A DNA stretch of 30,953 nt from a virus. Every line of letters begins with the position of its first letter. Positions within the stretch are counted from its first letter, which is position 1. The notes beneath the pieces are model-generated. The model was not told the origin of the DNA. It saw only the letters and a list, made by a program, of their open reading frames with translations, and did no database searches. The stretch is from IMG/VR virus record IMGVR_UViG_3300033145_001867, positions 1-30,953 of that record. The stretch is one strand, 5' to 3'. A program made the translations under genes and the position numbers. Shown in pieces: positions 1-30,953 of this stretch.

Positions 1-10
1 ACAAGGGGCG

Positions 11-65
11 TGCAACAAATGAATAGTAGTAACTACAACAAACAACTTCATAAATAACAACAAAA
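11..65 (+). other. Phage left end with three transposase-binding-type boxes
   Basis: The box TGCAACAAAT lies at 11-20, TACAACAAAC at 34-43 and AACAACAAAA at 56-65, so the starts are 23 and 22 bp apart and all share CAACAAA. The first box is repeated in inverted orientation at 30820-30829, and a second inverted copy lies 23 bp further in. A 5'-TG terminus followed by repeated transposase sites at helical-turn spacing is the known arrangement of Mu-type ends (L1-L3, R1-R3). Bases 1-10 would then be flanking DNA. The exact terminus is an inference from the shared box and the TG...CA rule; no target duplication confirms it. Confidence 0.75.
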
Positions 66-180: not shown

Positions 181-651
181 TTACTCTGGCACTAAATCGG
201 CGTCAGATACCCAGCCTCTACGACCATTATTTCGCTTAACGTAATACCAAGGAACGGATATACCTCTAGTAGACAATACCTTTTTATTTAATATTTCGAG
301 TTTTTCACCTTTGTTGATTGTACCAATTTTTTTATTACAACCATCACCATATCTTTCCGTGCCAGCTTTTGAATACATATTTGAATCCCAGCCAACTGTT
401 CTGTATTTTTTTGCAACTGGTTTATTTTGTACCTTGCTCTTTGAGACAGAGGGCTTATATATCCATCCCTCTATACTTACCTTAATCCATTCTCCATCAG
501 ATGACATCTGTTTTACTTCGGTGTTCTTGAGGAGTAAGCCGATCTTTTTACCGTTTGGTTTATCTCTGATGTTCTCAATCTCTTTGTTAACATAATAGAT
601 TTGCGATAACGATATATGCGAAAACAACAATAAAACGATAAAATACTTCAT
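181..651 (-). CDS. Secreted SH3-domain protein, probable lysogenic-conversion gene
   Basis: The 156-residue product opens with a short signal peptide (Lys-2, hydrophobic residues 4-15, likely cleavage near residue 16). Two bacterial SH3-like segments follow: residues about 25-70 (NIRDKPNGKKIG, GEWIKVSIEGWIY) and about 85-154 (GTINKGEKLEIL, WYYVKRNNGRRGWVSDADL). SH3b domains bind cell-wall peptide or act as adaptor modules; no catalytic domain is present. A GGAGAG ribosome site precedes the start, and the start lies only 9 bp beyond the repressor stop on the same strand, so the two are probably co-transcribed in the lysogen. That position, outside the lytic operons, suggests a cargo gene expressed from the prophage, such as an envelope-modifying or exclusion protein. 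The exact role is unknown. Confidence 0.75.
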   Translation of the reverse strand: MKYFIVLLLFSHISLSQIYYVNKEIENIRDKPNGKKIGLLLKNTEVKQMSSDGEWIKVSIEGWIYKPSVSKSKVQNKPVAKKYRTVGWDSNMYSKAGTERYGDGCNKKIGTINKGEKLEILNKKVLSTRGISVPWYYVKRNNGRRGWVSDADLVPE

Positions 652-660
652 ACTTCTCTC

Positions 661-1014
661 CTATTTTGGTTTTGTAATTAATGATTTTAAATAATGATAT
701 ATATGATCCTCAAGGTCAGGGTGATCATATAGAATCTTCATAATCTCTCGTACGCGCACGCGTTCCTTATTATAAGTAGGTGCCGGCTCATTAACCGTCA
801 TAGACAAACTGTGATCCTTTTCACTCTCTCCTGTAAGTAGCCATAATATATCTACGCCATATATTTCGTGAATACGTAATAGATACCTTGAGGATGGCTC
901 TGACCGACCTTTGAGCCAATCTCCCACATTTCCAGGACTCGCTCCTATTGAAATGGCAAATTCTTTTTTATTTTTCCCTGAATCCTTAATAATTTTTTCT
1001 AAACGTCCAATCAT
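661..1014 (-). CDS. Phage repressor, Cro/CI-type HTH protein
   Basis: This 117-residue protein has an N-terminal Xre-type helix-turn-helix at about residues 5-60: KKEFAISIGASPGNVGDWLKGR is the core, followed by SSRYLLRIHEIYGVDILWLLTGE, the usual end of CI-family DNA-binding domains. The short C-terminal part (residues 75-117) is acidic and helical and could be for oligomer formation; there is no LexA-type Ser/Lys peptidase domain, so induction by self-cleavage is not expected. It is divergent from the early operon and its start codon adjoins the two operator-like sequences at 1015-1054, which also cover its own promoter region (TATAAT on the minus strand, at plus 1052-1057). Autoregulation together with repression of the early promoter is therefore likely. 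It is placed like Mu c, but it is not a Mu c sequence homologue as far as I can tell. Confidence 0.85.
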   Translation of the reverse strand: MIGRLEKIIKDSGKNKKEFAISIGASPGNVGDWLKGRSEPSSRYLLRIHEIYGVDILWLLTGESEKDHSLSMTVNEPAPTYNKERVRVREIMKILYDHPDLEDHIYHYLKSLITKPK

Positions 1015-1118: not shown

Positions 1119-1304
1119 ATGACTTTAAAAACTCCTACTAAATATTTTCAAGCAACCCAGGGTCTCAATGATAATTGCTTCCCCCAATTTGATTTGGGAC
1201 CCTTTTCCTCACTATCAAACAACTATAATAATTATAACACTGAAAGTAATCAATCGCAATATCAATTCAAAACTATTTTTGGGGGAGACTATGGTCAAAA
1301 ATAA
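1119..1304 (+). CDS. Possible 61-residue early leader protein
   Basis: A strong ribosome site (GGGGAAGTAAGG) sits just upstream of this ATG, which is the first start after the early promoter. The product is Asn-, Gln-, Ser- and Tyr-rich (LSNNYNNYNTESNQSQYQF in the middle) with no recognisable domain. Its stop overlaps the start of the next gene by 14 bp, which suggests translational coupling. Low-complexity composition and lack of a family make it uncertain whether the peptide itself matters or whether its translation is only a leader. I do not recognise it. Confidence 0.4.
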   Translation: MTLKTPTKYFQATQGLNDNCFPQFDLGPFSSLSNNYNNYNTESNQSQYQFKTIFGGDYGQK

Positions 1305-1740
1305 AAGGAATTATGACATTAACCAAGCCAATCTCTGGGACAACCTGGGAGTTGGAGCATTACGAAATTTTGAGATCGAACTGAAAGAGTCATTGAATGC
1401 GGCGGTGCGGGCTTACCTGGCGGGATCGCCGACGCGCAGCCGGCACACACTGGCGGGCGAGATCAGCCACCTGTTGGACCGGACAATCACCGAGGATATG
1501 TTGAACGCCTATATCAGCACGGGCAAGACAGACAATCATCCGCATGCCGACCTGGTCGCTGCAATCTGTAAGATCACGGGAGCGGTGAAGCCGCTGGAAA
1601 TTTTTGCGGGGCTTCTATCAGTGACGGTTGTAACCGCAAAAGACATGATCTTTGTGGAACTGGCAAAGGTTAGTGAGCAGATTGAAAAACTCACCAAGCG
1701 CAAAGAGGAAATCAAGCGGCAGGCGGGCAGCGTTCTATGA
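1291..1740 (+). CDS. Early phage regulatory protein, CII-like
   Basis: The start at 1291 is chosen because a GGGGGAG ribosome site lies just before it; an upstream ATG at 1168 in the same frame has no such site. The 149-residue product contains SRHTLAGEISHLLDRTITEDMLNAYIS (about residues 49-76), then a helical segment ending HPHADLVAAICKITGAVKPL, and a C-terminal charged coiled coil (about 125-145). This layout is common to a family of early proteins in transposable and other phages that resemble CII-type regulators, with an HTH that lets the promoter side ignore repressor control. The next gene overlaps by 4 bp (ATGA). Function as a DNA-binding early regulator is inferred; it may instead assist replication. 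Confidence 0.6.
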   Translation: MVKNKRNYDINQANLWDNLGVGALRNFEIELKESLNAAVRAYLAGSPTRSRHTLAGEISHLLDRTITEDMLNAYISTGKTDNHPHADLVAAICKITGAVKPLEIFAGLLSVTVVTAKDMIFVELAKVSEQIEKLTKRKEEIKRQAGSVL

Positions 1741-2042
1741 GGCGCAATATTATAGACCGCACGCGCGTACGGGAGATGGCGGAAATGGGATTGACCCGGA
1801 AAGAAATCGGAAGGCGGCTGGGATGCTCGGAGCGCCATGTTCGGCGGATTCTTTCCGAATGTAAAATGAATAATGTAGAATGTAAAATGAGCAAGGGGGC
1901 GGTGCGGGCTGATGAGCATCAGTGCTGGCGGGTGGCGTTTGCGGTTTTCGGATCGTACAGCGCTGTGGCGCAGCGGTTCGGGGTATCGCGTCAGGCGGTA
2001 TATGGAATAATTAATAATTATCAATTGTCAATTGACAATTAA
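1737..2042 (+). CDS. Small protein with two helix-turn-helix motifs
   Basis: The 101-residue product has an HTH of resolvase/transposase type at residues 12-40 (MGLTRKEIGRRLGCSERHVRRI) and a second at about 74-95 (SAVAQRFGVSRQAVYGII). The two are joined by a linker encoded partly by a period-7 DNA repeat (1858-1892), and the C-terminal tail (YQLSIDN) is encoded by another repeat-type sequence (2021-2041). The start overlaps the previous stop as ATGA, so expression is coupled. It probably binds DNA, either as an early regulator or a helper of transposition. The repeat-coded linker and tail are odd and may not be part of the ancestral protein. Confidence 0.6.
   Translation: MRRNIIDRTRVREMAEMGLTRKEIGRRLGCSERHVRRILSECKMNNVECKMSKGAVRADEHQCWRVAFAVFGSYSAVAQRFGVSRQAVYGIINNYQLSIDN
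1858..1892 (+). repeat. Period-7 repeat, five AATGNNN units, inside a gene
   Basis: Five consecutive heptamers each begin AATG (AATGTAA occurs twice, plus AATGAAT, AATGTAG and AATGAGC). The array is in frame within the double-HTH gene and encodes the linker KMNNVECKM. A related array lies at 3028-3055. Arrays of this kind occur widely in intergenic DNA of many environmental bacteria, so its presence inside a phage gene is notable. Confidence 0.75.
2021..2041. repeat. Period-7 TCAATTG repeat containing an 18-bp palindrome
   Basis: Three heptamers (TCAATTG, TCAATTG, ACAATTA) also form the perfect palindrome AATTGTCAATTGACAATT at 2023-2040. It covers the 3' end of the double-HTH gene and ends just before the GGAGGG ribosome site of the next gene. 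It could fold into an RNA hairpin or bind a protein, but similar CAATTGA repeats are common dispersed elements, and I favour that reading. Confidence 0.65.
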
Positions 2043-2055
2043 AATCGGAGGGATA

Positions 2056-2928
2056 ATGGAAAAAACTATTGAGAAGAAAATCGAAGTGAAATCACTGATG
2101 GTATTCGACAGCGACAAAGGCGACTTTGTGCAGGTGACGCCGGACATGCAGCGGCACGCGGCGTATGTGCATCAGCAGATCGCGATGGGCACGTTCATGA
2201 TCGCCCTGGCAATCAAGAAGATGTTCGACGAGAAACTCTATCTCGGGCTGGGCTGCTCAAACAAAACCGAGTACTGTGAAACGATGCTGCCCTTCGGGAG
2301 ACAACAGGCTTATAAGTATTATAAAATTGGTAAAAAATTCCAGAAATATCTTCCGGGAGACAGTGAAAGTGTCGCCCCGGGGCGACACTTTGAAGACCTT
2401 GGATATAAGAAACTCTACGAACTCACTAAACTCGACGACGCTGATTTCGAGGAGTTGATAGAGACGGGTGAGATTGACGGTTTCAAGATGGAGCAATTCA
2501 AGAAGCAGACTTATAATGAAGCGATGAAAGAAATCAATCTCCTGCGGCGCAAATCATCGAAGAAAATCTCCATTCTTGAAGAGGAGAATAAGAAACTAAA
2601 GTCAGAGATGCAATCCAGGGAGAGATTGATCGAAGAGGCTAATGAGAAATACAAACAGGCGTTGGAGATGGAAGACGTTTATGGACCGATGAAGACGAGC
2701 GTCGATGACCGGCGCCGGGTGCTCAATAACGCTATAGACATGTTGAATCACGCCACTAAGCTGATCCTGAACTGCAAGGTGACGGTTGACGATCCACCGA
2801 CGCTGAAGCACACCGCCGTCGAGGTCTATAAGATTCTGTTTATAACCGCTGAGTATTGGAAAGACTATAACGGTGAACTGCTACTGAGTATGGAAGATTT
2901 TGATATTCAGGTGCGGGATAAAGATTAG
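2056..2928 (+). CDS. Early phage protein with C-terminal coiled coil
   Basis: The ATG at 2056 is used because CGGAGGG lies 5 bp upstream; an in-frame ATG at 2032 falls inside a repeat. The product has 290 residues. Residues about 30-90 (HQQIAMGTFMIALAIKKMFDEKLYLGLG, then EYCETMLPFGRQQAYKYYKIGKKF) resemble the DUF3102-like phage and plasmid proteins in which a helical sensor segment precedes an HTH. Residues about 155-210 form a long charged coiled coil (LRRKSSKKISILEEENKKLKSEM). The C-terminal third is helical with no motif I recognise. A DNA-binding early protein that oligomerises through the coiled coil is the best guess. A short G+C-rich inverted repeat (GTCGCCCCGGGGCGAC, about 2371-2386) lies within the gene. 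Confidence 0.5.
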   Translation: MEKTIEKKIEVKSLMVFDSDKGDFVQVTPDMQRHAAYVHQQIAMGTFMIALAIKKMFDEKLYLGLGCSNKTEYCETMLPFGRQQAYKYYKIGKKFQKYLPGDSESVAPGRHFEDLGYKKLYELTKLDDADFEELIETGEIDGFKMEQFKKQTYNEAMKEINLLRRKSSKKISILEEENKKLKSEMQSRERLIEEANEKYKQALEMEDVYGPMKTSVDDRRRVLNNAIDMLNHATKLILNCKVTVDDPPTLKHTAVEVYKILFITAEYWKDYNGELLLSMEDFDIQVRDKD

Positions 2929-2937
2929 ATGATGAAT

Positions 2938-3009
2938 TGCGGAGTAGAGTAATGGTAACTCGCCAGCCTCATAAACTGGAATATGCAGGTTCGATTCCTG
3001 CCTCCGCTA
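2938..3009 (+). tRNA. tRNA with CAT anticodon (Met or Ile2 type), slightly degenerate
   Basis: A full cloverleaf can be drawn. Acceptor GCGGAG 2939-2944 pairs with CTCCGC 3002-3007, with a U-U mismatch at the outermost pair. D stem GAGT/ACTC (2947-2950, 2958-2961) has a GG-containing loop. Anticodon stem CCAG/CTGG has an extra C-A mismatch next to the loop (2967, 2975), and loop CTCATAA puts CAT at 2970-2972. The variable loop is 5 nt. T stem GCAGG/CCTGC (2985-2989, 2997-3001) has loop TTCGATT. The discriminator is A3009; CCA is not encoded. It lacks the three stacked G-C pairs of initiator tRNA, so it is an elongator or an Ile2 (lysidine) tRNA. It lies within the early operon and would be processed from that transcript. 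Confidence 0.85.
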
Positions 3010-3013
3010 CTAA

Positions 3014-3055
3014 CGGCGCAAGCGCCGAATGTAAGATGAAAAATGTAAGATGAAA
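3014..3055 (+). repeat. Hairpin CGGCGC-AA-GCGCCG followed by a period-7 repeat
   Basis: A perfect 6-bp hairpin at 3014-3027 lies 4 bp after the tRNA and has no T run, so it is more likely a processing or stability element than a terminator. It is followed directly by four heptamers (AATGTAA and GATGAAA, alternating twice) at 3028-3055. The last of these contains the ATG used by the GemA-like gene, so the repeat forms that gene's start and most of its leader. Confidence 0.6.
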
Positions 3056-3601
3056 AACATTAATAAAAAGCAGGTGAAGAAAATCAGGACAGTGGCATCG
3101 AAGGTGTTTGCCGATGACGGTGAATATCACGAGTGGCTGAAATCGAATTACGGGATTAAGAGCACGCTTGACCTGGGTTTTTATGAGGCGATCGAAGCGA
3201 TCAATCTGCTGGAAGGCGATACGTCATTCGTGGCGCGGCAGCGCAAGAACGATCCGAATAAGTGGCGCATCAGCAAGAGCCAGGCGTTGCGAATCTCAGT
3301 TCTGGAAGATTTGTTGGGCTGGGCGAATGAACCGGCGCGGCTGCTGAAATTTATAGACCGGCAAGTCAAGCATCCGGGTAAAAATATCACCGACCTTTCC
3401 AAGCAGGAAGCGCGCAAGGTGATCATCGGGATGCAGCGGATATTGAGCCGGGGATCCCAGGACGTCTATGATTGGATCAATAAAATGAATAACGGCGAGC
3501 TGGGTGCCCAGGGCGAAATGATCCGGGCAATCTACAGCGACAATCCGGAATCGCTTATGCAAAAAGTCAACAATCAAACGGTGGGAAAATATGTGGTGTA
3601 G
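3050..3601 (+). CDS. gemA: GemA-like regulatory protein (Mu gp16 family, DUF1018)
   Basis: The 183-residue product has the DUF1018 plan: an N-terminal segment INKKQVKKIRTVASKVF with a short helical domain (EYHEWLKSNYGIKSTLDLGFYEAIEAINLL, residues about 26-56), a linker, and a C-terminal domain with LRISVLEDLLGWANEPARLLKFIDRQV, then ITDLSKQEARKVIIGMQRIL (about 112-135). In Mu, GemA (gp16) modulates host gene expression and DNA relaxation during the lytic cycle. Neighbours are early genes and the transposase, consistent with that. The start codon lies in a heptamer repeat with no clear ribosome site, so initiation may be weak. The stop overlaps the next gene by 11 bp. Confidence 0.75.
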   Translation: MKNINKKQVKKIRTVASKVFADDGEYHEWLKSNYGIKSTLDLGFYEAIEAINLLEGDTSFVARQRKNDPNKWRISKSQALRISVLEDLLGWANEPARLLKFIDRQVKHPGKNITDLSKQEARKVIIGMQRILSRGSQDVYDWINKMNNGELGAQGEMIRAIYSDNPESLMQKVNNQTVGKYVV

Positions 3602-3794
3602 AACATGTAACGAAGAGATGATCCCATTTGGAATTTATCTCGAACACGATGAAAAAGATGGGCATATCTGCCCGGTCTGCGGGCTCTGGATCTACGACCG
3701 CAAAAAGATAGACCGGAGCGAGTGCGGCGCGGCGTGGCTGGCGATGAGAGACAGAAAAAAACGATTTGTATCAAAAGATTTACGGGCACAATGA
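3591..3794 (+). CDS. Small zinc-ribbon protein
   Basis: This 67-residue protein carries two CxxC pairs, C3-x2-C6 and C26PVC29, spaced as in a zinc ribbon, followed by a basic tail (MRDRKKRFVSKDLR). It overlaps the GemA-like gene at its start and the transposase at its stop (ATGA), so the three are translationally coupled. It may bind nucleic acid or act as a partner of the transposition proteins. No named family is recognised. Confidence 0.55.
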   Translation: MWCRTCNEEMIPFGIYLEHDEKDGHICPVCGLWIYDRKKIDRSECGAAWLAMRDRKKRFVSKDLRAQ

Positions 3795-5407
3795 TTAATA
3801 TCGACCTACACACTTTGCAAAGTGAACTGAACGCTGCCGGCAGAGGGGCGCGGGGATCTGTCATAAAACGTTACGCAGCGCTTTATGGTGTATCGCGGGA
3901 TACGATCTACCGGATGCTCCGGCGGGAGTACGGCAAAACTAAAACCGTCGAGCGGAAAAAAAAGATAGATCAGACGCTGATCAACGCTGTGGCGCGATTG
4001 AAAATTACCGGGATGAATCTGGGCGCAATCTCTACCAATAAGCGCAATCCGCGCGAGTTACCGACGGACATTGCGATTGATCTTCTTAAAAACGAATATG
4101 GCATCTGCGAAGCGGAAGACCTGACGGTTTCGACGGTGAATAGACGGCTGCGTGAATCGGGCTTTCGCACTCCGGATCCGAAAATCCGGGTTGAATGCGA
4201 ATACGCCAACCAGGAGCATCAGTTGGATTTCAGCCGGTCTAAATACTTCCAGATTGTTGAATTTGACCCTGAGAAAAACGATTGGATACTGAAAGTCTCA
4301 GGGAAAGAATTACACTATAAAAAAGGCGATCGCAACTTCCGGCTGTGGATCGCGCAACTGAAGGATTCCTATTCGAGAGCACGGCTGGCGCGGGCGTACG
4401 GAGCCACCGGCGAAAGCGCTATCATGGGTTTAGAATTCCTAAATTTCTGCTATACCCGGAAAGAAGACGATCACCCGCTGAACTATATACCGGATACGCT
4501 CAAGACCGACCAGGGCGCATTTGCGAAAAAGAAAGAGGTTCAGGCGGTCATGCGGGCATTGCAGATAGAATTAAAGAAATCGACGCCCTGGAACAAAGAG
4601 TCGCAGGGTAAAATAGAATCGGGATTTGTGACGATTTGGCGCCGGTTTGAGATGCGGCTGGCGATGAAATTAGGCGGTGGCGCAAAGCTGTATCTCTCTC
4701 AATACAATCAACTCTTGCATGAATTTATGATCAAAGACTTAGATCAAAAGCATACGGTTCGCACTCAGTATAAACGGGGTGAAGATTACCGGGTATCAAT
4801 GATAGAACATCCGCCGCGTGAGATCGACGAGAGCCTGTTCATTCATGCCTTCCGGACTTATGAGCGGACCGTAGATCAGACGCTAATGGTTACGATTGAT
4901 AATATTCCATTAGCATGTCCGGACTATACGATCGGGCAGCGGATCAGGATATACCGGAACATGAACGGCGAATACGAAGGCGAGTTGATGAGAGAAGACC
5001 GCAAGTCATTCACATTGCAGCCGTACCACACCTATAAACCGGGCGAATTCGAGCATCGTCCGCACGCAACCTACCGGCAAAAAATGGAAGTCGAAGCGAG
5101 GCAATTAGAAAAAGAACGACTTGCGACCAAGGACAGATCGGAAGATTGGAAGCAGTTCAAGCAGTCGATCCAGCCGGTAATCGAGCAGGAAGCGGCTTCG
5201 CCATTTAACGAGACGACCTCTAAGAATTTTGAGACCGAGCGGGAAGCCCGGCTGTATATCGGGAAGCGACTACCGAAGGGCAAGACATTCACCGACTACG
5301 AGGATCTGTTTATGCCGCTAATAAAAAAGGAATTGAATAAAAAGGCGGTGGATATGATCATTGAGCAGATCGCTATATATGAGCAGGTAAGCATACAAAA
5401 ATATTAG
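3791..5407 (+). CDS. DDE transposase, MuA-type
   Basis: The start at 3791 overlaps the previous stop as ATGA; an upstream in-frame start at 3722 would lie inside the zinc-ribbon gene. The 538-residue product has an N-terminal HTH (about residues 24-46, KRYAALYGVSRDTIYRMLRR), a second helical DNA-binding region (55-125), and an integrase-like RNase H core. Catalytic residues visible are D146 (HQLDFS), D240 (LKTDQG) and E276 (GKIESGF); the last two have 35 residues between them, the classical D35E spacing. Residues about 370-450 fit the Mu-type C-terminal beta-barrel (DYTIGQRIRIYRNMNGEYEGEL). It would bind the CAACAAA boxes at both genome ends, cut the 3' ends and join them to target DNA. The gene for its ATPase partner follows at 11 bp. 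Confidence 0.93.
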   Translation: MINIDLHTLQSELNAAGRGARGSVIKRYAALYGVSRDTIYRMLRREYGKTKTVERKKKIDQTLINAVARLKITGMNLGAISTNKRNPRELPTDIAIDLLKNEYGICEAEDLTVSTVNRRLRESGFRTPDPKIRVECEYANQEHQLDFSRSKYFQIVEFDPEKNDWILKVSGKELHYKKGDRNFRLWIAQLKDSYSRARLARAYGATGESAIMGLEFLNFCYTRKEDDHPLNYIPDTLKTDQGAFAKKKEVQAVMRALQIELKKSTPWNKESQGKIESGFVTIWRRFEMRLAMKLGGGAKLYLSQYNQLLHEFMIKDLDQKHTVRTQYKRGEDYRVSMIEHPPREIDESLFIHAFRTYERTVDQTLMVTIDNIPLACPDYTIGQRIRIYRNMNGEYEGELMREDRKSFTLQPYHTYKPGEFEHRPHATYRQKMEVEARQLEKERLATKDRSEDWKQFKQSIQPVIEQEAASPFNETTSKNFETEREARLYIGKRLPKGKTFTDYEDLFMPLIKKELNKKAVDMIIEQIAIYEQVSIQKY

Positions 5408-5417
5408 GAGGGAAATA

Positions 5418-6371
5418 ATGAGTAACAGACAGGTATTGAATCATTTCGGACTGAACCGGTTGGGAACTTACCGGGGTGAGAATTTTCAGAAAGCCGTAGG
5501 AGAGATCATTGACGCTATTAATGACAACGAGATGCTGGCAATTTGCGGCGATCCGGGGACCGGCAAATCGACGGTCTTCGCTGAAGCCGTGCAGTGCTTG
5601 AGACACAATCCTGACCGGGCGCCGATCTTTGTTAAGGTCAATGACTGGTTCCGGGAACGGTTGACGATCGCAAACATTATGAACGCCATTATTGAGGACT
5701 TAAGCAGAGAGGGACCGAAGCGCTGTCTCGAAGCGCGCTCCCGGCAGTGTGAACGTATCCTCGGTGAGAAGGCGGTCTCCGAGCACCGGAAAATCGTGGT
5801 TGTGCTCGAGCAAGGTCATCGGCTGCATCTTAATACGCTGATAGCGCTAAAAGAATTGCGCGAGGCAACGTTTGCCGGGCACGACCGGCTGTGCAGCGTG
5901 ATCCTGCTTGGACACCCGGAATTAAGAGCTAAGATCGCCCGCCGTAACGAGATCGCATTGAGAACGGAATTCCTGATGCTTGACGAAGCCCACGGCTGGA
6001 TGACGTTCAAAGAGCGGGTTAAGTATATCGAGGCAGTCTATGGAGAAGCTATAACGGAGAAAGCGCGTGAGCGGATCGCCTTCCGCAAGAAAACACCCCT
6101 GGAGATTTATTATTACCTGAAAGAAAAAATGCGGGAAGAGATGCAGGCGGGCTATGACATTATCGACGAGAAGGCGGTCGAGCCGACGCTCTTTGAAAGG
6201 AAGAGCGACCTGAAAGTATCTTACAATGAGATAGCCAAAGAGGCGAACATCTCCAAGACGGCGGTCAGTAACGCCTTCCAGGGCGAAGCCGAGCATCTGA
6301 TTCCGACTGTGATTGCCGCAATGGAACGGCTCCAAGAAAAGCAAATTAACGAAACAATCAGGAGAGCATAA
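5418..6371 (+). CDS. MuB-like AAA+ target-selection ATPase
   Basis: The 317-residue product has a Walker A motif GDPGTGKS at residues 44-51, a Walker B strand KIVVVLEQGH at 125-134, and GHPEL at 165-169 as the sensor-1 region, typical of the MuB/TniB/ExeA group. In Mu, MuB binds target DNA as ATP-bound filaments and activates the transposase. The Walker B acidic pair reads E-Q rather than D-E, which is unusual. A clear HTH lies at the C-terminus (about 267-289, VSYNEIAKEANISKTAVSNAF), whereas Mu MuB has its HTH-like domain at the N-terminus. It has a GGAGGG ribosome site, follows the transposase by 10 bp, and its last base is shared with the next gene. Confidence 0.88.
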   Translation: MSNRQVLNHFGLNRLGTYRGENFQKAVGEIIDAINDNEMLAICGDPGTGKSTVFAEAVQCLRHNPDRAPIFVKVNDWFRERLTIANIMNAIIEDLSREGPKRCLEARSRQCERILGEKAVSEHRKIVVVLEQGHRLHLNTLIALKELREATFAGHDRLCSVILLGHPELRAKIARRNEIALRTEFLMLDEAHGWMTFKERVKYIEAVYGEAITEKARERIAFRKKTPLEIYYYLKEKMREEMQAGYDIIDEKAVEPTLFERKSDLKVSYNEIAKEANISKTAVSNAFQGEAEHLIPTVIAAMERLQEKQINETIRRA

Positions 6372-6721
6372 TGTGGATCACTGATCATAATATTGTATGT
6401 AGTTATGAATTAGCGAAGCGGCTGCGGAATATCGGCGTTCCGCAGCGCAGTAAATTCTACTGGTGTAAATGGTGTGAACCGGGCAGGGAACCGATCTATA
6501 ACGTTAAGATGATTCCCAATGACCCCGGCGCGCCGGCGGCGTTTACGGTGTCGGAGTTGGAAGAGATGCTACCATACGAATACGTGCTGTTTAGAAATGG
6601 GAATAAATGGAGATTCTATCATTCATACTATGACGTTTATTATACTTGCAAAGCGGAAACACTTGCCGACGCCTTCGCATCTTTTATTATTCAAATAAAA
6701 CAAAACTTAGAGGAGAAATAA
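6371..6721 (+). CDS. Conserved-type small phage early protein
   Basis: The 116-residue protein has the pattern YELAKRLRNIGVPQRSKFYW near the N-terminus, AFTVSELEEMLPYEYVL in the middle and AETLADAFASFIIQIKQ at the end. The same order (paired 'sequence of amphipathic helix, FYW, EL..LP, ADA') recurs in small proteins of many phages whose function is unknown. It has no catalytic motif. It overlaps the ATPase stop by one base (AATG overlap) and precedes the DUF3164 gene, so it belongs to the early replication unit. Confidence 0.55.
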   Translation: MWITDHNIVCSYELAKRLRNIGVPQRSKFYWCKWCEPGREPIYNVKMIPNDPGAPAAFTVSELEEMLPYEYVLFRNGNKWRFYHSYYDVYYTCKAETLADAFASFIIQIKQNLEEK

Positions 6722-6723
6722 CA

Positions 6724-7335
6724 ATGGCACAGAAAGACAAAGACGGGAACTGGATTGATCCGCGCGGTCAGGCAGTTCCGCGGGCATACGTCAAGCCCTT
6801 GGATCGCAAACGTGATCATGAAGTCGAGATGGCGGTTAAAGAGGCTCTTGCGATTGAGAAGCGGATGAAGGTACTGAAAGAAAAGATAATTAGTCGGATA
6901 ATGAGATATCGCAACGCCGTCGAGAAAGAGACCGGCGTTAAACTTAAGGGTAAAGGCAATCTTTGCCTTACAAATTTCAGCGGAGATAAGCAGATCGAAT
7001 TCAGCATGAACGATATTATAGTTTTCGATGAGAAACTACAGATTGCAAGACATCTAATCAATGAATGTATTGGCGAATGGAGCAAAGGCTCGAATAAAAA
7101 CCTGAAGGTTATTGTCAACCAGGCTTTTGAATTAGACAAAAGGGGTAAAGTCAACACTATGGCAATTCTGAAGCTTCGCCAGTTGAACATCAAAAATGCA
7201 AAATGGAAAAACGCAATGGAGTTAATCAACGAAGCGATGAATATCACCGGCACGCGACAGTATCTGAATGTCCGCGTTCGTGAAAATTCCAGAGCGAAAT
7301 TCAGAACTATCAACCTAAATTTTTCGAGCATATAA
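6724..7335 (+). CDS. DUF3164 family protein (Mu-like early protein)
   Basis: The start at 6724 follows an AGAGG ribosome site in the previous gene's end. The 203-residue product matches the DUF3164 layout: N-terminal DGNWIDPRGQAVPRAYVKP, a long helical charged segment (about 27-75), a beta segment (LCLTNFSGDKQIEFS, 85-99) and the family's most typical part, FDEKLQIARHLINECIGEW (about 103-122) with IVNQAFELDKRGKVNTMAILKLRQL (130-155). This family sits beside MuA and MuB in many transposable phages. Its activity is not known; an early role in transposition or DNA binding is inferred from context only. Confidence 0.85.
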   Translation: MAQKDKDGNWIDPRGQAVPRAYVKPLDRKRDHEVEMAVKEALAIEKRMKVLKEKIISRIMRYRNAVEKETGVKLKGKGNLCLTNFSGDKQIEFSMNDIIVFDEKLQIARHLINECIGEWSKGSNKNLKVIVNQAFELDKRGKVNTMAILKLRQLNIKNAKWKNAMELINEAMNITGTRQYLNVRVRENSRAKFRTINLNFSSI

Positions 7336-7336
7336 A

Positions 7337-7564
7337 ATGGTCTGTCCTTTTTGCAAATCAAAGGGTTTCGTGCCAACTGAGGAATTTAGTCGCCCGATCA
7401 AAAACCTGGGCGGCAAAGAGTGCTTCAATACGGTGGATTATCGCCGCTACACCTGCCTGCTTTGCGGACGGGTCTTCAAGACAAAAGAGATCTATGATTG
7501 CGAAATCCAGGTCAGGGTAAATAATCAACTGACATTCACGGATATAAGCGCTGATGGCGATTGA
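7337..7564 (+). CDS. Small zinc-ribbon protein
   Basis: The 75-residue product has C3PFC6 and C35LLC38 in a ribbon layout of the NrdR/transcription-factor type, with a strand-rich middle (TVDYRRYTCLLCGRVFKTKEI). It follows the DUF3164 gene by one base and overlaps the next gene by 11 bp. It is likely to bind nucleic acid, possibly as an accessory regulator. The function is not known. Confidence 0.55.
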   Translation: MVCPFCKSKGFVPTEEFSRPIKNLGGKECFNTVDYRRYTCLLCGRVFKTKEIYDCEIQVRVNNQLTFTDISADGD

Positions 7565-8366
7565 TCAAGCCCGGCTGAAAAAATTTTTAAAGGAGATGAA
7601 GGCACTGAGGGATAATCTTAGTATTGAGAATTATTATAGATCCTTCAACGCTAAACTTTTGAATTATCTCGATAAAAACAAGATGGACGGCGCATCGTTG
7701 CGGGAATTCCGGAAAGTTGTGGAGCGATTCTACAACCCGGAATTCCGGCACTTCGCCGACGATTGCTTCCGACAATACAATGACCTGATGGATATGACTA
7801 ATACGCTCTATGCCGATTTAGGTCCTGCGGTCTCGCGGGACTTCACAAAAATTAAGGCAATCGAGAAGATTAATCGTACAAGGCTTGGCGAATACCGTGA
7901 CGCATCCGCTCAGGAGATAGCATGGCGCGTGCGCGAAGGCATTGCAAAAGGCTATAGCGCTACGGACCTTTCAAAGTATCTACAACCTATCGACGACAAA
8001 GTACAATACTATGCGCATACAATTGCCAAAACCCAATCTTCGGGATACGCCCAGGAGTGCAAAAATGAGAAGTCCCGCATTGCGGAAGTTTTCCTTTTTG
8101 AATTCACGGGTCCCGGACTGAGAGATAACTCACACGCTTTCTGTGTCTGCATGTATCTCGTGACCTGTCATATCGACGACATTGAACAGATGTTGAACGG
8201 AACCGGGATGCCGGTATTGACCTATAAGGGCGGCTTTAACTGCGTGCACGTCTTCGAGCCGGATCCATTCGCTACGGAAAAGACGGAAGGATACTGGCAG
8301 GAAGGCTATATCGGGAAGCGGCTGATCAGGGTGTATTCGCCGAATACATTGCAAGTAGGAAAATAA
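7554..8366 (+). CDS. MuF-like minor head protein (phage head morphogenesis domain)
   Basis: The 270-residue product ends in a region like the SPP1 gp7/Mu F domain. Residues 152-170 (YYAHTIAKTQSSGYAQECK) match the usual helix 'R/K-T-x-x-x-x-x-x-N', residues 184-201 (FTGPGLRDNSHAFCVCMY) match the 'D-x-R-x-R-x-x-C' loop, and residues 226-238 (KGGFNCVHVFEPDP) match the closing 'NC-x-H-x-x-x-P' motif. In other phages this protein sits by the portal and is packaged in or attached to the head. Here it is in the early operon, convergent with and about 5 kb from the portal gene. A role in the head is inferred from the domain; an early function is possible. Confidence 0.65.
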   Translation: MAIDQARLKKFLKEMKALRDNLSIENYYRSFNAKLLNYLDKNKMDGASLREFRKVVERFYNPEFRHFADDCFRQYNDLMDMTNTLYADLGPAVSRDFTKIKAIEKINRTRLGEYRDASAQEIAWRVREGIAKGYSATDLSKYLQPIDDKVQYYAHTIAKTQSSGYAQECKNEKSRIAEVFLFEFTGPGLRDNSHAFCVCMYLVTCHIDDIEQMLNGTGMPVLTYKGGFNCVHVFEPDPFATEKTEGYWQEGYIGKRLIRVYSPNTLQVGK

Positions 8367-8388
8367 CGTCAAAGCTAACTGACTGAAT

Positions 8389-8403
8389 CCCCCTTCAAAG
8401 GGG
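8389..8403. repeat. CCCCTT-CA-AAGGGG inverted repeat element
   Basis: A perfect 6-bp inverted repeat (8390-8395 and 8398-8403) sits in the spacer after the MuF-like gene, followed by GGGAAAAATTGAGGG. This belongs to a widespread dispersed sequence type (CCCCCTTTGAAGGGGG-like) in bacterial intergenic DNA. No T run follows in the short loop form, so it is a weak terminator at best. It directly precedes the ribosome site of the small membrane protein gene. Confidence 0.5.
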
Positions 8404-8426
8404 AACTGGGAAAAATTGAGGGAGAA

Positions 8427-8555
8427 ATGAAAAAAACTAAAATTGATTGGCAAGCGGCAATGATTATCCTGGTTATCCTGATGGGGCTGTACTTCCCCGC
8501 CAGGATTGCAGTGACATTAATTCAAAATGCGATTGAAATCCATGCCGAGAGATAG
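8427..8555 (+). CDS. Small single-span membrane protein (42 residues)
   Basis: The ATG at 8427 has a GAGGGAG ribosome site 4-5 bp upstream. The product has a basic N-terminus (MKKTKIDW), one hydrophobic span at about residues 10-24 (AAMIILVILMGLYFP) and an amphipathic tail. It is too short for standard gene calls. It could be a superinfection-exclusion or membrane-targeted peptide. Its stop lies inside the next gene. Confidence 0.5.
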   Translation: MKKTKIDWQAAMIILVILMGLYFPARIAVTLIQNAIEIHAER

Positions 8556-8826
8556 TAAGAAACGCCGGATATTACTATACTTCACCGATCGGCAATGGCA
8601 TACCGGCTTGGAGATGACGCAGCGCTTTGGCTGGGCGTGGAATCAGCGCAAGAATGAGATGCAGCGCCTTGGGCGGATCGAGTTTGAAGCAAGGACGGTC
8701 AGACACGATTCATCCAACTGGGAGTACCGGTTAGTGACGCCGAACGACGAGATCGATTTTGTTAATTGTTGCCGGAAGATCACGGCGTTCACGACGGAGA
8801 AAAACGGACAGATAGCGTTTGTTTAA
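8542..8826 (+). CDS. Winged-helix DNA-binding protein
   Basis: The start at 8542 (MPRDSKKRRIL) is chosen because it gives a compact domain; an in-frame ATG at 8527 adds five residues and neither has a good ribosome site, so re-initiation after the upstream peptide is likely. The 94-residue product has a winged-helix fold pattern: RRILLYFTDRQWHTGLEM (helix 1 and 2), TQRFGWAWNQRKNEMQRLGRI (recognition helix) and a wing (EFEARTVRHDSSNWEYRLV). It is near the end of the early operon, the place where Mu carries the middle-promoter activator Mor, so it is a candidate late activator. That role is inference. Confidence 0.55.
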   Translation: MPRDSKKRRILLYFTDRQWHTGLEMTQRFGWAWNQRKNEMQRLGRIEFEARTVRHDSSNWEYRLVTPNDEIDFVNCCRKITAFTTEKNGQIAFV

Positions 8827-8850
8827 CTATGAATTACGCGGATTACACTA

Positions 8851-9480
8851 ATGAATATGAATAGTAAATTTCAAATATCAAATTTCAAATCGCAAATCGC
8901 TAAAGAATTGGATATACCGGAAGCGGTAATCACTAATATCCGCCGCAAGGAGTGGGGCGCGGTGGTCGGCTACTTCAAATACCGCTGGAACCAGGACGGC
9001 TATGCGGCTTTGCAGCGCAACCAGGGCGCCGTGGAGCGCGTGGTGAAATACTTTCAGGGATTGAAAAAGTACCACGTTCTGAATGTCTCATTCGAGACCA
9101 AGAAGACCATCGCTATGTATATCGAACGCCTGGGTGTAGCGCCGCTGCTGGACGACATTAAGCAGGCACTGGCGGCGAATCCCCGGATTAAGACGCTGAA
9201 CTATTTCATCGTTACCGAGAAAGGCGCAAAAACTCCGCGCTGGGGAATGCTCTATTTTGATAAAATTAATAAGGAATGGGAAGAGCGTAAGGAAGCGGAG
9301 AAATTAGAAACTGGAAATTTGAAATTTGAAATTGGGGAGAGGGTCACGCCGGATTGGGTGATCGATGCCCGGAAGCGAATAGCGGAATTAGAGGCGAAGA
9401 GGCTGACGCTTGATCTTAGCGAATTTCAGGAGGTAGCAGCCCTTCGGGACAGGTTGGAGAAGAATTGGAAGAGAGACTAA
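8851..9480 (+). CDS. Unrecognised early protein with repeat-coded segments
   Basis: The 209-residue product starts in a period-7 repeat (residues 5-17 are encoded by 8868-8902) and contains a second repeat-coded segment at about residues 150-161 (9300-9334). Between them, residues 18-145 look like a real helical domain: LDIPEAVITNIRRKEWGAVVGYF, QGLKKYHVLNVSFETKKTIAMYIERLGVAPLLDDIKQALAANP. The C-terminus is a helical acidic/basic segment (WVIDARKRIAELEAKRL). I recognise no family. A DNA-related early role is plausible, with no direct evidence. Confidence 0.5.
   Translation: MNMNSKFQISNFKSQIAKELDIPEAVITNIRRKEWGAVVGYFKYRWNQDGYAALQRNQGAVERVVKYFQGLKKYHVLNVSFETKKTIAMYIERLGVAPLLDDIKQALAANPRIKTLNYFIVTEKGAKTPRWGMLYFDKINKEWEERKEAEKLETGNLKFEIGERVTPDWVIDARKRIAELEAKRLTLDLSEFQEVAALRDRLEKNWKRD
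8868..8902 (+). repeat. Period-7 repeat, five ATNNCNA units, at gene start
   Basis: Consecutive heptamers ATTTCAA, ATATCAA and variants (AT-CAA and ATCGCAA/ATCGCTA) fill 8868-8902 in frame with the 8851 gene. The array encodes the N-terminal residues KFQISNFKSQI. Just upstream (8831-8856) another dispersed-type sequence reads GAATTACGCGGATTACACTA, whose second half recurs before the gene at 9513. Confidence 0.7.
9300..9334 (+). repeat. Period-7 repeat, five GAAANNN units, inside a gene
   Basis: Five heptamers beginning GAAA (GAAATTT twice, plus GAAATTA, GAAACTG and GAAATTG) run in frame and encode LETGNLKFEIG. It is the near reverse complement type of the array at 8868-8902 (GAAATTT versus AAATTTC), in the same gene. 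Confidence 0.7.
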
Positions 9481-30787: not shown

Positions 30788-30952
30788 TTAAAACCGGTTT
30801 GTTGCAGGTACGCAGGTCGATTTGTTGCAGGTTAGTTGTAGAATTTCGTCTAGTTCCTGGATACGTTGCTTCCAGCCCACCGGTCTTTCCGAAATTTGTC
30901 CGCGGGTGGCAATATCCCGGGCTTTTTCATAGATACTATTACCGCCGAGAGG
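30788..30952 (-). pseudogene. Host gene truncated by the phage right end
   Basis: An open minus-strand frame enters from outside the window (beyond 30953) and reads GGNSIYEKARDIATRGQISERP then VGWKQRIQELDEIL, with normal-looking codons, until about 30830. It then runs into the phage end (TGCAACAAAT) for 14 further codons and stops at 30788-30790. The host part (30830-30952) is more G+C-rich than the phage end. This is the usual picture of a gene interrupted by a transposable phage. The host gene is not identified; its C-terminus should be on the other side of the insertion. Confidence 0.6.
30797..30829 (-). other. Phage right end with two inverted transposase boxes
   Basis: Read inward on the minus strand, TGCAACAAAT starts at 30829 and TGCAACAAAC at 30806, 23 bp apart. 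This mirrors the left end (11 and 34, also 23 bp apart). The shared terminal box and 5'-TG end give the predicted right terminus at 30829. A weaker third site may lie near 30763-30772. A hairpin ACCGGTT-AA-AACCGGT (30783-30798) adjoins the inner box. The identical spacing at both ends is the main evidence. Confidence 0.75.
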
Positions 30953-30953
30953 C

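Follow-up and report, generated by a model that had tools for sequence, protein, structure and literature searches.

Phage Mu leaves a target duplication of 5 bp and B3 one of 6 bp, TG-CA ends are usual among such phages, and a 6-bp duplication is made by those Leptospira prophages that have TA-TA ends (PMC8705779). Phages of the D3112 type start with TGT and carry three 22-bp sites at each end (PMC4378225). The transposable phage described from Bacteroidetes, Flavobacterium phage fF4, has no sequenced ends, the sequencing of its genome termini having failed (PMC7761591). Exact ends are needed for recognising prophages of this kind, for mapping their insertion sites and for building mini-phage tools.

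The window analysed here is the whole 30,953-nucleotide stretch of DNA from an IMG/VR virus record (IMGVR_UViG_3300033145_001867). Its genes include those for a GemA-like protein, a DDE transposase (TnpA), an AAA ATPase (TnpB), a terminase, a Mu-like portal, a Mu-like protease, a major head protein, a tape measure protein and tail fibres. Among the marks of Mu-like phages, it carries the DDE transposase with its ATPase partner, GemA (PF06252), the protease (PF10123) and a Mu-type portal (phrog_113, with matches to Mu-like phages); 5'-TG...CA-3' termini were not found, the terminal 4-mer being ACAA/TTGT. We consider it very likely that the window is a nearly complete Mu-style transposable phage occupying positions 1-30839, with ends composed of a 4-mer, an arm and two boxes, and with TnpA-TnpB transposition that proceeds with a 3-bp stagger (Table 1). 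Two further genes were observed: a bacterial SH3 domain gene at 181-651 (minus strand), between the left end and the repressor-like gene, and a 270-aa gene at 7554-8366, near the transposition genes, which is kept in nearly all relatives and has no significant Pfam or PHROG match.

Table 1. Features of the phage ends and of the transposition region in the window
Feature	Position	Strand	Basis or remark
Left (early, 'A') phage terminus, ACAA	1..4	+	27 other ends aligned; conservation zero one base outward; contig begins here
Left terminal arm, GGGGCG (A-type, G-rich)	5..10	+	G-tract conserved in 14 early-side ends
Outer box L1, TGCAACAAAT	11..20	+	Probable transposase-binding site; exact sequence matches and aligned ends of relatives
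Inner box L2, TACAACAAAC	34..43	+	2 mismatches; 23 bp inward of L1
Possible third box L3, AACAACAAAA	56..65	+	Best of 21 windows here; not general in relatives
HTH repressor-like gene adjoining left end	661..1014	-	PHROG and Pfam repressor/HTH matches
GemA-like gene	3050..3601	+	PF06252, E 2.7e-6
TnpA, DD(35)E transposase, 538 aa	3791..5407	+	phrog_2610/phrog_310; rve/IS481-like; TnsB/IstA fold
TnpB, AAA ATPase transposition partner	5418..6371	+	PF13401, E 2.5e-13; phrog_296 DNA transposition protein, E 4.5e-17
Inner box R2, TGCAACAAAC	30797..30806	-	1 mismatch; 23 bp inward of R1
Outer box R1, TGCAACAAAT	30820..30829	-	Exact inverted copy of L1
Right terminal arm, CTAACC read inward (B-type, consensus CCGRCC)	30830..30835	-	Aligned ends
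Right (late, 'B') phage terminus, ACAA read inward (TTGT on + strand)	30836..30839	-	Aligned ends
AGA, predicted right copy of 3-bp target duplication	30840..30842	+	Inferred from six relatives; left copy would lie just outside contig
Host DNA flank, 114 bp	30840..30953	.	Outside conserved terminus

The preliminary description had reported that a 10-mer at 11-20 recurs in inverted orientation at 30820-30829 and that each copy is followed, 23 bp further inward, by a second box. Both statements were borne out: the 10-mer has exactly these two copies in the window (plus strand on the left, minus strand on the right) and no third, and the inner boxes lie at 34-43 and 30797-30806. The motif CAACAAA occurs 13 times in the window, compared with 4.85 occurrences expected, and five of the 13 copies sit at the two ends, including a third left-end copy at 58-64. 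The third left box that had been proposed is present, and outranks all 20 control windows in this phage; its counterpart was found in one relative only (G416), and the idea of a general third box across the lineage was dropped. The relatives carry the same pair of boxes 22-23 bp apart at their ends, so that the boxes are very probably subterminal TnpA-binding sites. The proposal that the boxes mark the ends of a transposable phage and supply a likely transposase consensus was upheld, while the true ends lie 10 bp further outward.

By sequence similarity, no cultured phage is close to the window phage. The closest TnpA proteins in the phage collection, those of Stenotrophomonas phages and of Pseudomonas phages such as the B3-like PM105 (PMC4777764), show ∼25% identity over half the protein. 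Used alone as a query against viral and genome contigs, TnpA brought up no close relatives, and searches with the two-box DNA pattern and with two further end patterns returned mostly chance matches. Queries with TerL and the capsid protein did find relatives, and alignments extended the reach; together they yielded ∼20 relatives among viral contigs and three prophages in MAGs. One of these MAGs is from Bacteroidetes, another from KSB1, and the third, which bears no label beyond 'bacterium', falls in the phylum of the KSB1 one. Whole-genome searches added the more distant prophages G026, G109 and G156 (Bacteroidetes phylum) and G491 (KSB1 phylum). Two boxes in inverted orientation, 22-23 bp apart, were seen wherever the end of a relative was present (G001, G002, G003, G006, G009, G010, G012, G416, G419, G026 and others; more than a dozen diverged relatives), and within each phage the spacing is equal at both ends (23/23 here, 22/22 in most). 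Both ends were available with short flanks in G002, G003, G009, G010 and G411, and with host DNA outside them in G012, G416, G419, G026 and G109. The window phage is a member of a lineage of transposable phages from Bacteroidota and KSB1-related MAGs, characterised by a TnsB/IstA-like transposase and 3-bp duplications.

Two observations on genome organisation were made in the course of these comparisons. The early gene block (window 1168-9480, the transposase region) is flipped with respect to the G-rich end in six relatives (G002, G003, G010, G011, G026 and G109) and unflipped in eight phages including the window; the TnpA tree needs ∼3 flips, at least two of them on well-supported branches. 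Locus L073 (1-6938; the near-identical contigs G420, G421 and G422) carries, at one fixed junction, a tail-side end that is perfect and comprises ACAACCGGCC and two boxes. This end adjoins SMC-like and YqaJ-like genes, with no transposase or other relative of the window phage there, and is perhaps a relic or a hybrid phage.

To locate the termini, 28 ends from the window and its relatives were aligned on the outer box. Conservation extends 10 bp outward of the box, as far as a terminal 4-mer whose first base has an information content of 1.17 bits, against ∼0 bits outside the 4-mer. The 4-mer is mostly ACAA, with the variants ACAG, ACAT, ATAA, ATAT, ATTA, TGTA, TGAA and TGAG; it is usually identical at both ends of one phage, and contains TG only in G010, G026 and G109. 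Between the 4-mer and the box lies a 6-bp arm; on the transposase side it is rich in G, and on the tail-fibre side it resembles CCGRCC. The search matrix for the left end of G419, the right end of G026, both ends of G109 and G491 already included the 10-bp arms, and their arm conservation is not independent evidence; flanks outside the 4-mer were never part of this matrix. In three cases (window, left; G002, right; G409, left) the contig itself begins with precisely the outermost base of the 4-mer, as expected if coverage ends with the last phage base. All other flanks of viral contigs without long host sequence are shorter than ∼115 bp, that is, within one read.

On the basis of these aligned ends, the phage is placed at 1-30839, which makes the window a nearly complete phage with only 30840-30953 as host DNA. 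Searches with this 114-bp piece gave no identity for the flank. The preliminary description had set the phage at 11-30829, with relatives conserved past these positions named as evidence against it; the relatives do retain 10 conserved bp outside each box, and their insertion scar lies outside those 10 bp. The idea that ACAA stems from a preferred target site was discarded, because ACAA/TTGT is situated between the scar copies and the phage, which is the wrong order for host sequence.

An identical 3-bp direct repeat, flush against the 4-mers, was found in six of the nine phages having both flanks (AGG in G012, AAG in G416, ATC in G419, GTC in G010, AAG in G026 and CGT in G109). At 40 other frames a 3-bp match occurred in no more than two phages, and matches of at least 4 bp (4, 5 and 6) likewise in no more than two at any frame. 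The repeat was absent in G003, G009 and G411, metagenome contigs with flanks of less than 110 bp, whose left and right flanks may derive from different insertions in the metagenome. Neither the 5-bp duplication of Mu nor the 6-bp duplication of B3 was found in the relatives, six of which have 3 bp. At the level of contigs, each relative has distinct host flanks and the contig flanks are short, which fits insertion at many sites and replicative transposition.

The scar was also examined through interrupted host genes. The G026 prophage, whose TnpA is only ∼30% identical to that of the window, interrupts a CTP synthase gene. When the phage was cut out together with the 10-bp arms and a single copy of the 3-bp repeat, the restored protein contained GGTVGDIESQPYLEAIRQ, which aligns without gaps to GGTVGDIESLPFLEAIRQ of Escherichia coli CTP synthase; when no repeat was removed, one extra residue resulted. 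In G416, excision of the phage with the arms and one 3-bp copy restores a 580-aa ORF. For the window phage, which has no left flank in the contig, a 3-bp scar is predicted from these relatives. It should be noted that the gene broken by the G026 prophage (L125 from 15802) would be expected to be essential, and that the genome is a species representative; this host likely has a second copy of CTP synthase, or the assembly is mixed.

The enzyme earlier called MuA-type is indeed a DDE transposase, with catalytic residues spaced D,D(35)E, but it is only distantly Mu-like. A Pfam search returned no Mu-specific family at E values up to 0.1, and phrog_310 ('transposase') matched at 4.8e-15. Matches to the IS481 and rve families are weak, and the NCBIfam IS481 score of 37.2 bits is far below the cut-off of 224 bits, too low for membership of IS481. 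The structural model (pLDDT 74, medium confidence) has TnsB of a type V-K CRISPR transposon and IstA of IS21 as its nearest solved folds, with Z 15-16.5 over 267-330 residues at ∼16% identity, and with high rmsd across domains in this medium-confidence model. MuA is not among the fold matches listed for TnpA, and its absence there does not exclude MuA likeness. Transposon-like loci were also observed on plasmids of Salinimonas, Megaera and Calothrix (L028, L029 and L030), in each of which a DDE transposase with ∼25% identity to TnpA is accompanied by an AAA ATPase and a resolvase; they are possible non-phage cousins.

Could the boxes have another origin or function? When both ends were subjected to 5,000 dinucleotide shuffles, 171 of these (3.4%) contained an inverted exact 10-mer; by itself such a 10-mer is unremarkable, which is what can be said for AT-rich chance repeats. 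The strength of the observation is the paired spacing: two identical 7-mers with equal spacing on both sides appeared in 0 of 5,000 such shuffles, as the earlier judgement of its improbability had anticipated, and the pair recurs in the diverged relatives, so that chance has a negligible probability. A role as repressor operators or as an enhancer, with the position at the ends being coincidental, could draw on the nearby repressor-like gene, TnpA being a predicted ligand of the boxes. This reading is unlikely, given that the boxes keep a fixed distance from both termini, including the one at the tail-fibre end, a long way from the repressor, and that their spacing is equal within a phage.

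Two other placements of the termini were weighed, both with a 5-bp duplication as in Mu. If the termini lay one base further in than those placed here (5'-CAA...TTG-3'), an exact TAGGA/TAGGA repeat would flank the G012 phage, and such a duplication was an early idea, dropped since other lysogens disagreed. G012 is the sole match at that frame among the nine phages, five of the six available lysogens disagree, and the restored CTP synthase of G026 receives T instead of a conserved P, which leaves this model very unlikely. Even less credence is due to a phage running exactly from 11 to 30829 with 5'-TG...CA-3' ends. TG does precede both outer boxes in the window, and TG-CA ends occur in Mu and in B3-like phages (PMC8705779); however, the relatives do not keep this TG (CG, CA and TA in G001, G002 and G009), the 10 bp outside are conserved, a 5-bp repeat at that frame was found in no phage, and the G026 CTP synthase would gain five extra residues. 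The TG...CA termini given previously are accordingly replaced by ACAA/TTGT.

Sequence comparison establishes how the ends are built, where the phage terminates and that the relatives have a 3-bp scar. We infer that TnpA binds the boxes, that TnpB chooses the target, that transposition is replicative and that the window phage has such a scar. Read inward, each end consists of the terminal 4-mer (here ACAA), the 6-bp arm and two tandem boxes (tGCAACAAAt) 22-23 bp apart. TnpA would bind the tandem boxes at both ends, as suggested by the anatomy and by its family, pair the ends and nick at the outer edge of the 4-mer. The ends would then be joined to target DNA picked with the AAA partner TnpB, the target strands being attacked 3 bp apart, so that repair would leave a 3-bp duplication. 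Since the geometry of a strand-transfer complex shows in the stagger that it makes, such a scar, if true, would mark a mechanistic difference between this group and both Mu and B3. The ends of this phage are also an example of how boxes that are conserved but internal can pass for termini.

The lineage probably represents a third class of transposable phages, beside the 5-bp Mu and the 6-bp B3/Tn552 classes. Its defining traits would be a 3-bp stagger at the target, a TnsB/IstA-like DD(35)E enzyme, a pair of tandem boxes at each end, and outer arms of 10 bp that are asymmetric and have terminal bases specific to the lineage. A search of the open-access literature (subscription papers being outside its scope) found no 3-bp duplication in transposable phages. 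Tn7/CAST TnsB and IS21 IstA, the top structural matches of TnpA, belong to transposons and not to phages, and share only ∼16% identity with it. Tn7/CAST and IS21 have subterminal tandem binding sites, and Tn7 makes a 5-bp duplication.

Non-TG ends are already known among transposable (Mu-like, proposed Saltoviridae) phages, namely in Burkholderia phage KS10 and in the Leptospira TA-TA prophages. KS10 resembles the window lineage in that each of its ends carries two A-rich repeats, suggested to be TnpA sites, and in lacking TG...CA termini; its repeats are 15 nt long and of other sequence, and no flanking direct repeat was detected (PMC2628397). The fF4 group likewise comprises ∼32-kb transposable-type phages of Bacteroidetes, but GemA was not found in fF4 (PMC7761591), whereas the window has a GemA-like gene; the phage collection search gave no match of fF4 to TnpA. 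The B3/BcepMu group, with its Tn552-related transposase and including the Leptospira prophages, shares an rve-type transposase with an ATPase and, in some members, non-TG ends (PMC8705779), and differs in its 6-bp duplication, as opposed to 3 bp here, and in the low TnpA similarity to PM105 noted above. With Mu/D3112-type phages the lineage has in common the DDE transposase and ATPase, GemA, the Mu-like protease and portal, host DNA at variable ends, and tandem transposase sites near both ends, of which those phages have three per end (PMC4378225). Unlike them, it carries two boxes per end at a fixed 22-23 bp, a TnsB/IstA-like TnpA, mostly non-TG termini and a duplication of 3 bp instead of 5 bp.
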